A stretch of 64,000 bases of DNA, taken from NCBI GenBank assembly GCA_028869255.1, contig CP110972.1, forward strand, positions 4,717,001 to 4,781,000, read 5' to 3'. Source of the DNA: Pseudomonas poae (GTDB taxonomy: Bacteria; Pseudomonadota; Gammaproteobacteria; Pseudomonadales; Pseudomonadaceae). A model generated the notes under the pieces. The model saw only the letters and a program-made list of their open reading frames with translations. It was not told the DNA's origin and searched no databases. Shown here in pieces: positions 57,174 through 64,000 of this stretch. Both the position numbers and the translations under genes were made by a program. Within the stretch, counting starts at the first letter, position 1; every line of letters starts with the position of its first letter.

Positions 57174-58815
57174 ATGAGCTGGCTTAACGACGCAAAACTC
57201 TCGACCAAACTGATCACCTCCTTCTCACTCTGTGCCCTGATCACCTTGGGCGTCGGCGTGCTGGGAAGCCGGGGGGTGTCTGCGCTGTCGGAAAGCCTGA
57301 GGCTGGTGTTCACCAATAACCTGGTCGCCGTCTCGAACACCGCCCAGACCAAGACCAAAGCCGTAGGCCAGAGCCGCGACCTCTACCGGCTCTACGCTGC
57401 GTATGCCAGCGACGCGCCGCAGAACGTCAAAGACGAATTCATCGCCTCCATGAATGCCAACCGGCTGGCCAGTGAGCAGGCATTTGCCCTTTATCGCCAG
57501 AGACCGCTTGCCGATGACGAGCGTGTGGCCGGCGATAAAATGGAGCGCGACTGGCCTGCGTATCAGGCAATGCTCCAGCAATACGTTGCCCTGTTGCAGG
57601 CCCACGACCTGGAAAAAGCCCGCGCACTGTTGTTCGGCGACCTGCAAAAAAGCTACCGCACGGTGATGGATGAGCTGACGATCATGGTCGACTCCAATGA
57701 CCGCCAGGTTGCAGAAAGCGCCAAGGACGCCACCGCCCAGGAGGCTTCGGCCAAGAACACGCTGTACTCGGGCATCGTCCTGGCGTTTGTTGCAGCGATT
57801 CTGTTGGGCCTGTTTATCAGCCGCCTGATCAGTCGCCCGATCGCTACCGCCATGACCAGCGCACGGCGCATTGCCGATGGCGATCTGACCCAAGCCATCG
57901 TGAGCAGCGGCCGCGACGAAACCGGCCAACTGCTGAGCGCCTTGGGCGATATGCAGTCGAGCTTGAAACAAACCATCCAGCAAATTGCCAGCGCATCAGA
58001 CCAACTCGCCTCCGCGGCGGAAGAGCTGACGGCGGTCACCGAGAACGGCAGCCGTAGCCTGGTTCGCCAGAACGATGAGATTCAACAGGCCGCAACGGCG
58101 GTCACCGAGATGACATCAGCGGTGGAGGAAGTGGCGCGCAATGCGGTGTCCACCTCCGAGGCTTCGCACGCCACCAGCCAGCAAGCCACCAATGGCCGCG
58201 ACCAGGCGCGCAAGGCGGTCACGGCGATCAACCATGCCACCAGCGAAATCGACTCATCGACCACCATGGTCAAGGACCTTGCCGGCCAGGTACGCGATAT
58301 CGGCAAAGTGCTCGACGTGATCCGCGGCATTGCCGAGCAGACCAACCTGCTGGCACTCAACGCCGCCATCGAGGCCGCGAGGGCCGGTGAGCAGGGCCGC
58401 GGTTTTGCCGTGGTTGCCGACGAAGTGCGCGCCCTCGCCGCCCGCACCCAGGCGTCGACCGGGGAGATCGAAGGCATGATCAACGGCGTGCAAACCAGCG
58501 CCGACCAGGCCGTGGGCGCCATGGGCAAGAGCCAGGCACTGGTCAATGACACTCAGACCCTCGCCCAGGCCACCGGCGAAGGCGCTGGAACAGATCGCCG
58601 ACGGCATTTCCCAGATCAACGAGCGCAATCTGGTGATCGCCACCGCTTCGGAAGAACAGGCCCATGTGGCACGCGAGGTCGACCGCAACCTGGTGAATAT
58701 CCAGGACCTGTCGACACAAACAGCCGCCGGCGCACATCAAACCAATGCATCGACCCAGGAGCTGTCGAAGCTGGCGATCTCGTTCAACACCCTTGTCAGT
58801 CGTTTCCGCCTGTAA
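57174..58815 (+). pseudogene. Methyl-accepting chemotaxis protein, frameshifted near the 3' end
   Basis: The first frame encodes a chemoreceptor: helix 1 (about 11-33), a four-helix-bundle periplasmic sensor, helix 2 (about 198-218), a HAMP domain and the signalling hairpin with [35 protein letters not shown]. After QTLAQATGE the frame changes. The next frame reads [26 protein letters not shown] and ends properly in [10 protein letters not shown] at 58815. Removing one A at 58579-58580 gives [10 protein letters not shown]. As written, the first frame runs on to 58850 with an unrelated tail and loses the last 75 residues, including methylation helix 2. The start at 57174 has AGGA 7 bases before it. 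It could be real or an inserted base. Confidence 0.88.
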
Positions 58816-58828
58816 AACACCGAGCCGC

Positions 58829-58870
58829 AAAAAAGGGCGCCGTGCATTGACTGCACGGCGCCCTTTTATT
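58829..58870. terminator. Bidirectional terminator between chemoreceptor and OmpA-like gene
   Basis: GGGCGCCGTGCA and TGCACGGCGCCC form a perfect 12-base stem, with a run of A on the left and T on the right. It serves both convergent genes. Confidence 0.9.
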
Positions 58871-59879: not shown

Positions 59880-60524
59880 TCATGCGCGGACAAACGGGTT
59901 CTCGCGCATCTCATCCCCCAGCCGCGTATCCGGCCCGTGCCCTGCCACCACGGTCGCGCCTTCGTCCAGCGTGTACAGCCGCTGCCTGATCGAACGCACG
60001 ATGGTCGCCTGATCCCCACCCCACAAATCCGTACGGCCCACGCCACGGCGAAACAGCGTATCCCCGGCGATCAGCAGCTTGGCATCGGCAAACCAGAAGC
60101 TCATCGAGCCCGGCGTATGGCCCGGCGTGTGCAACGCCACCCCGCAACCGCAGGCCAACTCCTCGTCATGTTCCAGCCAGCGATCCGGCGACGGCACCGG
60201 CGTATAAGGCACGCGAAACATCTGGCACTGCATTTCCAGATTGTCCCAGAGGAACTGATCTTCCTTGTGCAGGTGCAGGGTGGCGCCGGTTTTTTCTTTC
60301 AACTGGCCAGACGCCAGGAAATGATCAAGATGGGCGTGGGTGTGGATGATGCTCACCACCTTCAGGCCCAGCGCATCGAGGCGGGCCAGGATCAGCTCAT
60401 GGTTGCCGCCCGGGTCGACCACGATGGCTTTTTTGGTGATGGGGTCGCCGATGATGGTGCAGTTGCACTGCAACGGGCCGACGGGGAAGGTTTCGCGGAT
60501 CAGTAAGAGCTTTGCAGCATCCAT
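59880..60524 (-). CDS. MBL-fold metallo-hydrolase (glyoxalase II-like)
   Basis: A 214-residue metallo-beta-lactamase-fold hydrolase. The metal-binding THAHLDH motif is at 62-68. The other ligands are in LHTPGHTPGSMSFW (about 131-144) and FADAKLLIAGDTLF (about 145-158), with a final His in VVAGHGPDT (about 195). Both metal sites appear complete. It is short compared with true glyoxalase II (about 255), and belongs to the YcbL-like group. It is the last gene of ordinary composition before the lower-GC right end. Confidence 0.9.
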   Translation of the reverse strand: MDAAKLLLIRETFPVGPLQCNCTIIGDPITKKAIVVDPGGNHELILARLDALGLKVVSIIHTHAHLDHFLASGQLKEKTGATLHLHKEDQFLWDNLEMQCQMFRVPYTPVPSPDRWLEHDEELACGCGVALHTPGHTPGSMSFWFADAKLLIAGDTLFRRGVGRTDLWGGDQATIVRSIRQRLYTLDEGATVVAGHGPDTRLGDEMRENPFVRA

Positions 60525-60685: not shown

Positions 60686-62602
60686 ATGGATCAGATTGAG
60701 ACAAGGCAACCGGAAGCCATGACCACAACCGCAGAGCACGTACTCATCGATCACAGCCTCCTGCTTCGGGATCCAGACATTGTCCGTCGTATCCATCGGA
60801 AAAAGGGACTGCCGTTTGTGACTTACGCCGCCCTTGAAGAGCTAATCACTCGTGCCAAGGGAAACAATCAACCCGACTCAGGTGCCAGCCTTCTTAACTA
60901 CTTTTCCAATAAAAACTCACGTTTTCATGAAAAGCTTCCGAAAGGCCTCGTATTAAAGCCTGGCGATCTGTTAGCAGAATTCGCTTTTGAGGGGCAGTCG
61001 ATATTCGCAATCAAACGCAGTGCACCATTGAGCACGCCTCAAAGAGCGCCACTGTGCGTAGAGCTCAGCAGCCACTATGACTTGCTATTGCTTACAGACA
61101 ATAAAAATCTGTTCCCATACTGTAAAGCCCTGAACGTCAGGGCTCAACTTTGGACCGGTCCTGCAAGCCCAAAAAAAATTATGCCTTTTGAGCTTCCAGC
61201 CACCCCCACAACTAGACCCGACTCGCCCATTCAAATCACCAATGTCCCACGGGAAGGCCATGCGCTAATAAGTTCATCAGGGAGGCATATAAGGCTTGGC
61301 AAAGCTATAAGCTCGGGTGGAGAGGGATCGATTTACGCCTTACCGGGAGGTCGGGAGGTGTGCAAAATCTATCATGCCGAAAAACTGACCATCCGACGGC
61401 AACAAAAAATCGAACTGATGGTGACGCGTCAGATAGTAGAGCAAGGTATATGCTGGCCTACAGAGTCGGTCCGTAATATTGAAGGCCAATTTGTCGGTTA
61501 TGTGATGCCTATGGCTAATGGCCGAACCTTACAATCTTCGGCGTTCGGCAAACCCATGCTGGCAAAAGCATTTCCTTCATGGACACGAAAAGACTTAGTC
61601 AATATTGGCATAGCGTTTCTCAAGCAGGTGCACTACCTGCATTCGCTCAATATTATTATTGGCGACATCAATCCGATGAACTTACTCGTGACACAAGAAA
61701 GTACACGCATCTGGATGGTGGACACAGACAGCTTTCAAATTGAGGGGTTTCCGTGCGAGGTAGGAACGCCCAATTACACGGCACCGGAGCTCCAAGGACA
61801 GAATTACGCGGTTTTTTTACGCACCAAGGATCATGAGTTATTTGCCGTCGCAACAATGTTGTTCATGATTTTACTGCCCGGAAAGCCGCCCTACGCTCAA
61901 CAAGGCGGTGGCTCACAAGAGGAAAATATCAAGAACAGAAACTTTCCTTACCGATACAAAAAGAACAGCGGTAAAGGAAAGACATCCGTGACACCAAAAG
62001 GGGCCTGGCAGAATATCTGGAGCCATTTGCCTTATACGCTGAAGCAAGCTTTCGGGAACACCTTTGAAGACAACCAACGTACCCAGATTGATAAGTGGCT
62101 GGAGCAACTGAACCTATACGCGACTGCACTGGATCAAAATAAAAGCTCCAATGCCCTTTTTCCTGATGCCTTTCATATATCGGACCCGGTCGAAACCATC
62201 TGTGGGAGCTGTAAAAAGACCTACATTGAATCCAAAAAGTGGGTACTCACAAGAAAATCCACCCGCTGCTCCCAGTGCCAACGCCGAGCAAATGTGGAAG
62301 AGATGGCTCGTGAAAGCCAGAAGGAAATCGAGCGAGCCCAGCAGCGTCCGCCTCCCCCAACGATAACAATCGCCGCGCCGCAGCACACAAAACCGACGCA
62401 ACCTCGTGCTATCCAAACTATTGCACCGCCAATACCACGTAACCCGCCCTCTGTGTCGCCGGCAAAGGTTGTAATAAGACAGCCACAAAGACACGTTACT
62501 TCACCTCGGCCAGAACCCAAAAAAACGATAGCTAAAAAACCAGACTCCGCGAAGAGTGTTCTTTTCCGGTTGCTCAACCTTCTCCTGAAACGCTTTTTAT
62601 AA
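60686..62602 (+). CDS. PIN-like domain / protein kinase / zinc-ribbon fusion, kinase of a TerY-P-type triad
   Basis: A 638-residue protein with three parts. Residues 18-160 look like a PIN-type nuclease fold: acidic D22 in VLIDHS, E51/E52 in AALEELI, and D138 in LLLLTDNKN. Residues 200-480 are a eukaryotic-like protein kinase: glycine loop SSGGEGSIY (209-217), K227 in VCKIY, catalytic loop GDINPMN (D327, N332) instead of the usual HRD form, DTDSF (346-350) in place of DFG, and TAPEL (365-369). Residues 506-531 hold CGSC and CSQC, a probable zinc ribbon. A Pro/Lys-rich tail ends in a hydrophobic helix. The start at 60686 lacks a strong ribosome site; a second Met at 60719 is possible. Base composition is lower in GC than to the left. 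It heads a kinase-vWA-phosphatase operon. Confidence 0.85.
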   Translation: MDQIETRQPEAMTTTAEHVLIDHSLLLRDPDIVRRIHRKKGLPFVTYAALEELITRAKGNNQPDSGASLLNYFSNKNSRFHEKLPKGLVLKPGDLLAEFAFEGQSIFAIKRSAPLSTPQRAPLCVELSSHYDLLLLTDNKNLFPYCKALNVRAQLWTGPASPKKIMPFELPATPTTRPDSPIQITNVPREGHALISSSGRHIRLGKAISSGGEGSIYALPGGREVCKIYHAEKLTIRRQQKIELMVTRQIVEQGICWPTESVRNIEGQFVGYVMPMANGRTLQSSAFGKPMLAKAFPSWTRKDLVNIGIAFLKQVHYLHSLNIIIGDINPMNLLVTQESTRIWMVDTDSFQIEGFPCEVGTPNYTAPELQGQNYAVFLRTKDHELFAVATMLFMILLPGKPPYAQQGGGSQEENIKNRNFPYRYKKNSGKGKTSVTPKGAWQNIWSHLPYTLKQAFGNTFEDNQRTQIDKWLEQLNLYATALDQNKSSNALFPDAFHISDPVETICGSCKKTYIESKKWVLTRKSTRCSQCQRRANVEEMARESQKEIERAQQRPPPPTITIAAPQHTKPTQPRAIQTIAPPIPRNPPSVSPAKVVIRQPQRHVTSPRPEPKKTIAKKPDSAKSVLFRLLNLLLKRFL

Positions 62603-62624
62603 ACACTCTCACAAGGATGATTAC

Positions 62625-63299
62625 ATGCAGGAAGACTACGTACTTCGTCAGGAAGACCTCCTCGAAAACCCAACAGCGCGGGTTCCGATCTGCCTGGTGC
62701 TGGATACCAGCGGCTCTATGGACGGTTCGCCAATTGCAGAACTTCAATCGGGTGTGCAGATGTTTTTCGACGCTATCCGTGCAGATGAAGTAGCTCAATA
62801 TGCCGCTGAGATTTGTATCGTCACATTCGGTGGCACCGCCCAAAAATCGTTGGACTTCAACTCGATTGAACGCCAGGACGTTCCACCCTTGGTAGCTAGC
62901 GGAATGACACCCATGGGACATGGCGTCAGCATCGCACTGGATCTGCTCGAAGCGCGAAAAGAAGACTACAAACGCGCCGGCGTTGATTACTACCAACCTT
63001 GGATGGTCATCATGACGGATGGGGAACCTACAGATGACATATCTTCAGCAGCCGCTCGAGTAGTCAGCCTGACTGAAAAACGAACACTCACTGTTTTCCC
63101 GATTGCTATTGGTCCGGCAGCCAACCTTGAGTATCTCAAACAGTTTTCACCGAAACGCCCACCACTTCGCTTGAAGGGCCTGAACTTCAACGAATTCTTC
63201 CTTTGGCTCAGCCGCAGTGTTTCACGCGTTTCACAATCGACACCGGGAGATGAAGTAACACTGGATACAGCCGGTATCGCCGCCTGGGGGCACATCTAA
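62625..63299 (+). CDS. TerY-like von Willebrand factor A domain protein
   Basis: A 224-residue single-domain vWA protein. The metal-ion-dependent adhesion site is complete: DTSGS (27-31), the Thr in SGMTPMGHG, and the Asp in IMTDGEPTDD. The central sheet strands PICLVLD, AEICIVTF and WMVIMTD are clear. It has no signal peptide, so it acts in the cytoplasm. TerY-type vWA proteins of tellurium-resistance-like stress systems have this length and form. AAGGA lies 7 bases before the start. It follows the kinase gene after 22 bases and precedes the phosphatase gene by 5, so the three are one operon. Confidence 0.9.
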   Translation: MQEDYVLRQEDLLENPTARVPICLVLDTSGSMDGSPIAELQSGVQMFFDAIRADEVAQYAAEICIVTFGGTAQKSLDFNSIERQDVPPLVASGMTPMGHGVSIALDLLEARKEDYKRAGVDYYQPWMVIMTDGEPTDDISSAAARVVSLTEKRTLTVFPIAIGPAANLEYLKQFSPKRPPLRLKGLNFNEFFLWLSRSVSRVSQSTPGDEVTLDTAGIAAWGHI

Positions 63300-63304
63300 A
63301 AACC

Positions 63305-64000
63305 ATGACCAGCACCGTTCTAGATTACCGTGCTCTTACTGCCTGCGCGTTCATCGCAGGCAGTTCGCACGCGAAAACGCAAACCCCTTGCCAAGACTTT
63401 GTAGCCGCCCGGCGCGTGAAGGGGATCACATGTATTGCGCTTGCTGATGGTGCAGGATCCCGATCCAGATCCGAGGAGGGAGCGAAGGTCGTAGTGAATA
63501 CGATGCTGGCTTATATTTGCAGGCACTTCGAAACACTGTGGAAAATGGCTGAAAACAACCCCGTGACGGCTGCCGAAGAAGTTATCTCCCGATGCATGAA
63601 AGCTCTACAACTGAAGGCTGTGGAGCTGGAATGCAATGCTGATGACCTGGCAAGCACACTGTTGTTTGTCGCGCACAGCCATGGACGTTATTTGGCTGCT
63701 CACTTGGGAGACGGGCTTATAGCGATGGTTGATTCAGAAGGACAGGCCCACGTACTTTCACTCCCGGATAACGGCGAGTTCACAAATACCACAGTATTTG
63801 TCACGGACCCACGCGCCGTACCTAGACTACGAATTTATTGTGGCCTAACTCAGGATCATGCGGGATTCATGATCATGAGTGACGGGGCAGCAGAAAGCCT
63901 TTACCAAAAAGTCACTACAACACCTGCACCCGCTATCAAGAAATTATTGGAATGGAATATCCGCTTACCAAGGAAAAAAATGAAAGCGGTTCTAGAGGGT
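63305..64000 (+). CDS. PP2C-family protein phosphatase of the triad (partial at right edge)
   Basis: 232 codons are visible and the frame is open at the window end. PP2C metal-binding residues are recognisable: D48 in ALADGAGSR, GD at 136-137 in HLGDGL, and D193 in MSDGAAES. The N-terminal CQDF motif takes the place of the usual QD of the family. These residues predict a Mn/Mg-dependent Ser/Thr phosphatase that would reverse the neighbouring kinase. It starts 5 bases after the vWA gene. The C-terminus and whatever follows are outside the window. Confidence 0.88.
   Translation, partial: MTSTVLDYRALTACAFIAGSSHAKTQTPCQDFVAARRVKGITCIALADGAGSRSRSEEGAKVVVNTMLAYICRHFETLWKMAENNPVTAAEEVISRCMKALQLKAVELECNADDLASTLLFVAHSHGRYLAAHLGDGLIAMVDSEGQAHVLSLPDNGEFTNTTVFVTDPRAVPRLRIYCGLTQDHAGFMIMSDGAAESLYQKVTTTPAPAIKKLLEWNIRLPRKKMKAVLEG

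Follow-up and report, generated by a model that had tools for sequence, protein, structure and literature searches.

The question raised by this locus is what a patchily distributed set of three genes, encoding a protein kinase, a protein with a von Willebrand factor A (vWA) domain, and a PP2C phosphatase, does for its host, Pseudomonas poae. The triad lies at the right end of the 64-kb stretch that was analyzed (positions 4717001-4781000 of contig CP110972.1, a 6.8-Mb single-contig genome); this whole stretch is called “the window” below, and positions are given in its coordinates. The first gene of the triad was found to start with a PIN nuclease-fold domain (residues ca. 16-160), which stands ahead of the kinase domain and of a zinc ribbon with four cysteines and had been overlooked in an earlier reading of the same DNA (the original prediction). 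The triad is an accessory module and is read here as a phosphorylation switch, probably antiphage in role.

Architecture of the triad

Three adjoining plus-strand open reading frames (ORFs), in the order kinase-vWA-PP2C and with gaps of 22 and 5 bases, make up the triad. The features were located as follows.

60686..62602, plus strand: PIN-kinase-zinc ribbon protein, 638 residues (ORF list, Pfam, domain analysis)
60731..61165, plus strand: PIN domain, residues ca. 16-160; acidic residues D22 and E52 retained, A121/P122 at the lost third site, N139 at the fourth (fold and alignment)
61262..62134, plus strand: Ser/Thr kinase domain with C-terminal helices, residues ca. 193-483; K227, D327, N332, D346, and D348 conserved (Pfam, alignment)
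62186..62290, plus strand: zinc ribbon, residues ca. 501-535, with cysteines 506, 509, 528, and 531 (alignment, model)
62552..62596, plus strand: C-terminal helix, residues 623-637, preceded by a low-confidence stretch at 564-621 (model)
62625..63299, plus strand: cytoplasmic vWA protein, 224 residues (ORF list, Pfam)
63305..64081, plus strand: PP2C phosphatase, 258 residues, its stop beyond the window end at 64000 (Pfam; end read from the genome)
60504..ca. 64124, no strand: segment that empty sites lack, its left edge at 60500-60503 and its right edge past the window (site comparison)

Pfam matches were obtained for all three proteins (Pkinase, 4e-8; VWA, 1.8e-11; PP2C_2, 3.2e-46). The original prediction had described the arrangement, the three folds, and a third gene continuing past the window, and it had called the composition TerY-P-like; all of this was borne out. 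The kinase gene comes first, as opposed to the vWA-PP2C-kinase order of classical triads. Also supported is the C-terminal zinc ribbon on the kinase, as in the CoCoNuT and Anantharaman types: conservation of the four cysteines reached 90% or more across the 38 relatives in the alignment. Pfam returned no zinc-ribbon match in the kinase protein. Inspection by eye located the motif DTSGS..T..D in the vWA protein and the motifs DG, GD, DG, and DD in the phosphatase, which we take to be the metal-ion-dependent adhesion site (MIDAS) and the PP2C metal-site motifs, respectively; a TerY-like vWA domain with a MIDAS is thus present. At the C-terminus of the kinase protein, the model featured the short ribbon, the low-confidence stretch, and the helix rather than an OB fold of the Gao type; this ending is common to the copies in two congeners, G273 and G258.

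The G+C content of the ORFs (kinase, 0.49; vWA, 0.52; PP2C, 0.51) is lower than that of the right-hand ORFs (0.54-0.66, most at or above 0.57), as had been noticed from the sequence. Low G+C content alone is weak evidence, because further dips occur in the window at ca. 47 kb (0.51) and ca. 56 kb (0.54).

Erosion of the PIN active site

The acidic D-E-D-D tetrad was scored by alignment on 62 PIN domains, 52 of them outside and 10 within the clade that contains the Pseudomonas copies. Outside that clade the tetrad was complete in 49 of the 52 domains (E in 50, the third D in 50, and the fourth D in 51). Inside it, complete tetrads were found in a Roseateles locus (L030) and a viral contig (L107), the third site was ambiguous in L017, L018, and L027, and at least one ligand was lost in the window copy, L028, L029, L031, and L032, the losses differing among copies. 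The window PIN domain has two of the four acidic ligands (D22 and E52); both of the positions expected for the third are occupied by non-acidic residues, and the fourth is N139. In tree tests, a single origin for all eroded copies was rejected (approximately unbiased test, p 1e-18), and a single origin of erosion within Pseudomonas was not (p 0.48). The domain is under purifying selection in four Pseudomonas copies, with ratios of nonsynonymous to synonymous substitution rates of 0.12-0.26; comparisons with the window copy were saturated. Judged from these alignments, the window PIN is probably a retained but inactive nuclease domain.

Distribution of the triad

The relatives comprised the best 80 of 84 confirmed loci from a scan of genome contigs plus two from viral contigs (82 in total). 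The order kinase-vWA-PP2C was present in 68 of the 82, and 55 of these 68 have a PIN start. A pattern had given 57, and two of its matches, L077 and L090, were rejected as PIN carriers on reading. The 13 loci without a PIN start include these two, L099, three at contig ends or with misplaced starts (L051, L067, and L088), four split Campylobacter genes (L035, L036, L091, and L098), and three Treponema loci with short N-termini. The PIN triads occur in Pseudomonadota, Bacillota, Actinomycetota, Planctomycetota, and Spirochaetota, with one unplaced (L054). A Fusobacterium record outside the 82 loci (L025) has the same make-up. Classical vWA-PP2C-kinase triads are carried by three further congeners (G250, G278, and G126) and by L026. 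Two loci (L023 and L024) are on plasmids, and in L107, which is prophage-like, a triad with an intact PIN domain directly follows phage tail and tail-lysozyme genes.

Several side observations were made on the relatives. L025 (NZ_CP084075.1) is a 2.1-Mb record labelled as a plasmid; it is probably a chromosome, because it carries ordinary chromosomal genes, one of which reads as ribosomal protein S20. Three Bacillus loci (L037, L041, and L055) have, at ca. 13.2-15.9 kb, a second PIN-kinase and vWA pair downstream of the triad, followed by a DnaJ-like gene. One helix-turn-helix gene family recurs in 12 loci (L025, L050, L053, L058, L080, and others), in several directly upstream of the kinase, and a different helix-turn-helix family is upstream in eight actinobacterial loci. 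The kinase is split into two frames in Campylobacter L098 (6791-8343) and L091 (1994-3198), by decay, phase variation, or sequencing error. An extra N-terminal stretch precedes the PIN domain in L045, L049, and L024; Pfam IF2_N matches 3 of 66 relatives. The Treponema triads without PIN (L084, L092, and L093) share a recurring upstream gene to which no family was assigned.

The insertion site

The triad is a three-gene insert between a gene for a hydrolase of the metallo-β-lactamase (MBL) fold and a LuxR gene. To the right of the PP2C gene, the ORFs read as a minus-strand LuxR/MalT-like gene followed by DUF1329, DUF1302, and acyl-CoA ligase genes. The original prediction had allowed that effector genes might follow on this side; no ter, nuclease, or integrase gene was recognized there when the ORFs were read by eye.

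A search of 398 genomes of the genus (own included; cut-off 1e-10) returned seven matching genomes: the genome itself, G273 (58% identity), G258 (56%), G314 (44%, the match being interrupted by a single stop), and three with classical kinases. A relative over most of the length was present in 3 of the 397 other genomes sampled. In G273, G258, L027, and L028, a triad lies between the same two genes. Identity to the window is 57-60% over the kinase stretch, 76-81% for the vWA protein, and 56-57% for the phosphatase, compared to 90-94% for the MBL protein and 77-79% for the main LuxR stretch.

For an empty-site survey, 29 congener loci were taken as the best-scoring of 43 genomes that matched the MBL gene (own excluded) in a sample of 59. 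The original prediction had named the presence of the same triad at this site, with normal codon use, in every related Pseudomonas genome as one finding that would count against it; the kinase was present at this site in none of the 29. In 12, LuxR lies directly beside MBL with no triad; 16 have no LuxR within 1.5 kb and are thus not judgeable as empty sites. The remaining locus (G067; L117, ca. 485-1237 plus flanks) is a decayed triad, in which the PP2C gene is open and the kinase and vWA genes have been cut to stubs by two deletions. The MBL-LuxR spacer is 119 bases in G017 versus 3.6 kb in the window genome. Given the empty junctions, the diverged triads, and the G067 remnant, the sequence comparison identifies the module as accessory, with a history of gain, loss, or exchange between these two genes. 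Four other genomes hold a diverged triad there and one a decayed remnant, so occupation of the site goes back some time. The comparison supports an accessory module rather than specifically a recent arrival.

Two frame changes were seen nearby. The LuxR gene (window position ca. 65960, past the right end) aligns to G273 in two frames near codon 57, and a chemotaxis ORF (57174-58850) seems to run on in another frame (ORF 58546-58815; change at 58540-58560). These are frameshifts or assembly indels; the ORFs of the triad are open.

Proposed function and alternatives

The explanation that we favor, and hold with about even confidence as a whole, is a stand-alone TerY-P variant that has a PIN RNase effector in most lineages and, in this strain, an inactive PIN domain with the kinase as output. 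How far the system is phosphorylated would be controlled by the kinase and PP2C, with the vWA protein and its divalent-metal MIDAS as the adaptor; the parts turned toward nucleic acid would be the zinc ribbon and the PIN domain. The PIN fusion would in most lineages probably serve as an RNase effector that is gated by phosphorylation and freed upon phage infection. The likely effector or sensor is this domain, not downstream genes. In this strain, where two of the four acidic ligands are gone, it is most likely a nucleic-acid-binding or sensing module. Because the PIN domain is eroded, the output would be the kinase, phosphorylating host or phage proteins under restraint by PP2C.

The domains, their order, their conservation, the erosion, and the patchy presence are direct observations, whereas an antiphage role, the gating, and the direction of signaling are inferred (papers named by PMC number are cited here from excerpts). 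TerY-P triads confer protection from T7-like phages and Autographiviridae (PMC7699616, PMC10889362), and PIN catalytic residues are required in two other defence systems (PMC13092281); antiphage signaling is favored for these reasons, and the candidate role in phage defence named in the original prediction stands. The neighbor proteins of the relatives (n = 100) were searched with PADLOC at 1e-10, and 112 models matched; among the 25 matches listed were AbiU in three proteins, CARF-HEPN in two, and single matches to LmuA, LmuB, RT_VI, CARF-PDDEXK, AbiEii, Cas10, PDC-M72A, mad3, and ZorA, the last of which may be a MotA-like false match.

Several observations weigh against this explanation. The window copy is outside any defence island: the 63 proteins of the window and right flank gave one PADLOC match, which is MotB-like, and none that was convincing. 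The neighbor sets came from different genomes and were compared unmatched. PADLOC, which the original prediction had suggested running, does not call TerY-P at the triad: STK_OB reached only 15.8 bits on the kinase (over 131-206 of 562), and the TerY model matched neither the window vWA protein nor two of three other vWA proteins tried. Of 298 further genomes from the phylum, 3 gave even a kinase-level match, a rarity that suits many accessory functions. The window protein gave no PIN family match in Pfam up to E = 1, in contrast to its relatives, and D138, beside N139, might partly stand in for a lost ligand.

A toxin-antidote arrangement is rather unlikely, though the best placed of the alternatives. 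The kinase would be toxic and growth-arresting, PP2C would be the antidote, and a phage that attacked PP2C or the vWA protein would release the kinase. The open PP2C gene of G067, where the kinase and vWA genes are almost entirely gone, is the safe order of loss under such a scheme, and DS-6 is a HipA-like kinase defence (PMC13092281). However, this argument draws on a single remnant, the toxicity is hypothetical, and L108 has a kinase-vWA pair without an adjacent PP2C gene.

It is also unlikely, somewhat more so, that the window PIN is still an active RNase effector as in its relatives, with D138 or another acid substituting. D22 and E52 are retained, the domain is under purifying selection in sister copies, and D4 is present in the G273 and L027 copies, which also show DD close to the helix start. 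Against this stand N139, where 51 of the 52 outside domains have D, the lack of an acid at either expected third position, and the loss of different ligands in other Pseudomonas copies (in L028, L029, and L031, E is replaced by K, A, or T).

A stress or metal-signaling module of the tellurite-type Ter system, with no antiphage role, is improbable: TerY-P triads are described as tellurite-linked in literature quoted by PMC11090510, but TerD (PF02342, the sole ter family searched) had no match in the genome and was detected in control genomes, which leaves the tellurium link of the original prediction unsupported, the flanks read as ordinary, and relatives lie on plasmids, on a prophage-like contig, and near defence genes.

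What TerY-P triads do to phage or cell is left unexplained in the TerY-P literature as excerpted. A PIN nuclease joined to the kinase, as in 55 of the 68 kinase-vWA-PP2C loci, offers a concrete, testable candidate for the effector, and the natural copies with damaged active sites reveal which part is still under selection. If antiphage, the triad is a further system, one that goes uncalled by the PADLOC models used here. More tentatively, on the doubtful side of the question, PIN-kinase triads may be a widespread, self-contained immune switch, with PIN RNase and kinase in one chain that is reset by the vWA adaptor and PP2C; they would be a counterpart in logic of IRE1 and RNase L, would supply the missing effector of stand-alone TerY-P, and would, in Pseudomonas and in a single lineage of Rhodobacteraceae, have changed at least twice into a sensing pseudo-nuclease that leaves the output to the kinase. 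IRE1 and RNase L likewise have a kinase fold and an RNase in one chain; their RNase is of the KEN fold and they occur in other organisms, so the likeness is an analogy only.

Comparison with known systems

No description of a PIN-kinase fusion was found in the open-licence literature, a scope that left out Anantharaman et al. (2012). The PIN defence systems DS-3 and DS-5 (PMC13092281) share a PIN RNase in phage defence, with essential catalytic residues, but are without kinase, vWA, and PP2C. Actinobacterial genes near GAP1-N2 GTPases (PMC7159879) encode the same three enzymes, with the ribbon on the kinase; the passage on them mentions no PIN domain, whereas the actinobacterial loci of this analysis carry one. 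In the sources excerpted, the CoCoNuT-type triad also has a kinase with a C-terminal zinc ribbon, a vWA protein, and PP2C, and a tie to RNA-targeting restriction is proposed for it; here, PIN is fused, and no CnuB, CnuC, CnuH, or CnuE genes were seen beside the window triad when the flanks were read by eye. The TerY-P triad of the type of Gao et al. (2020) (PMC7699616, PMC11090510) is likewise stand-alone and has a TerY-like vWA protein, PP2C, and a Ser/Thr kinase. The window triad differs from it in having a zinc ribbon instead of the C-terminal OB fold, an N-terminal PIN domain, and the kinase gene first, and the TerY and STK_OB models of PADLOC fail to recognize it. The triad is best read as a PIN-kinase variant of the TerY-P kind.
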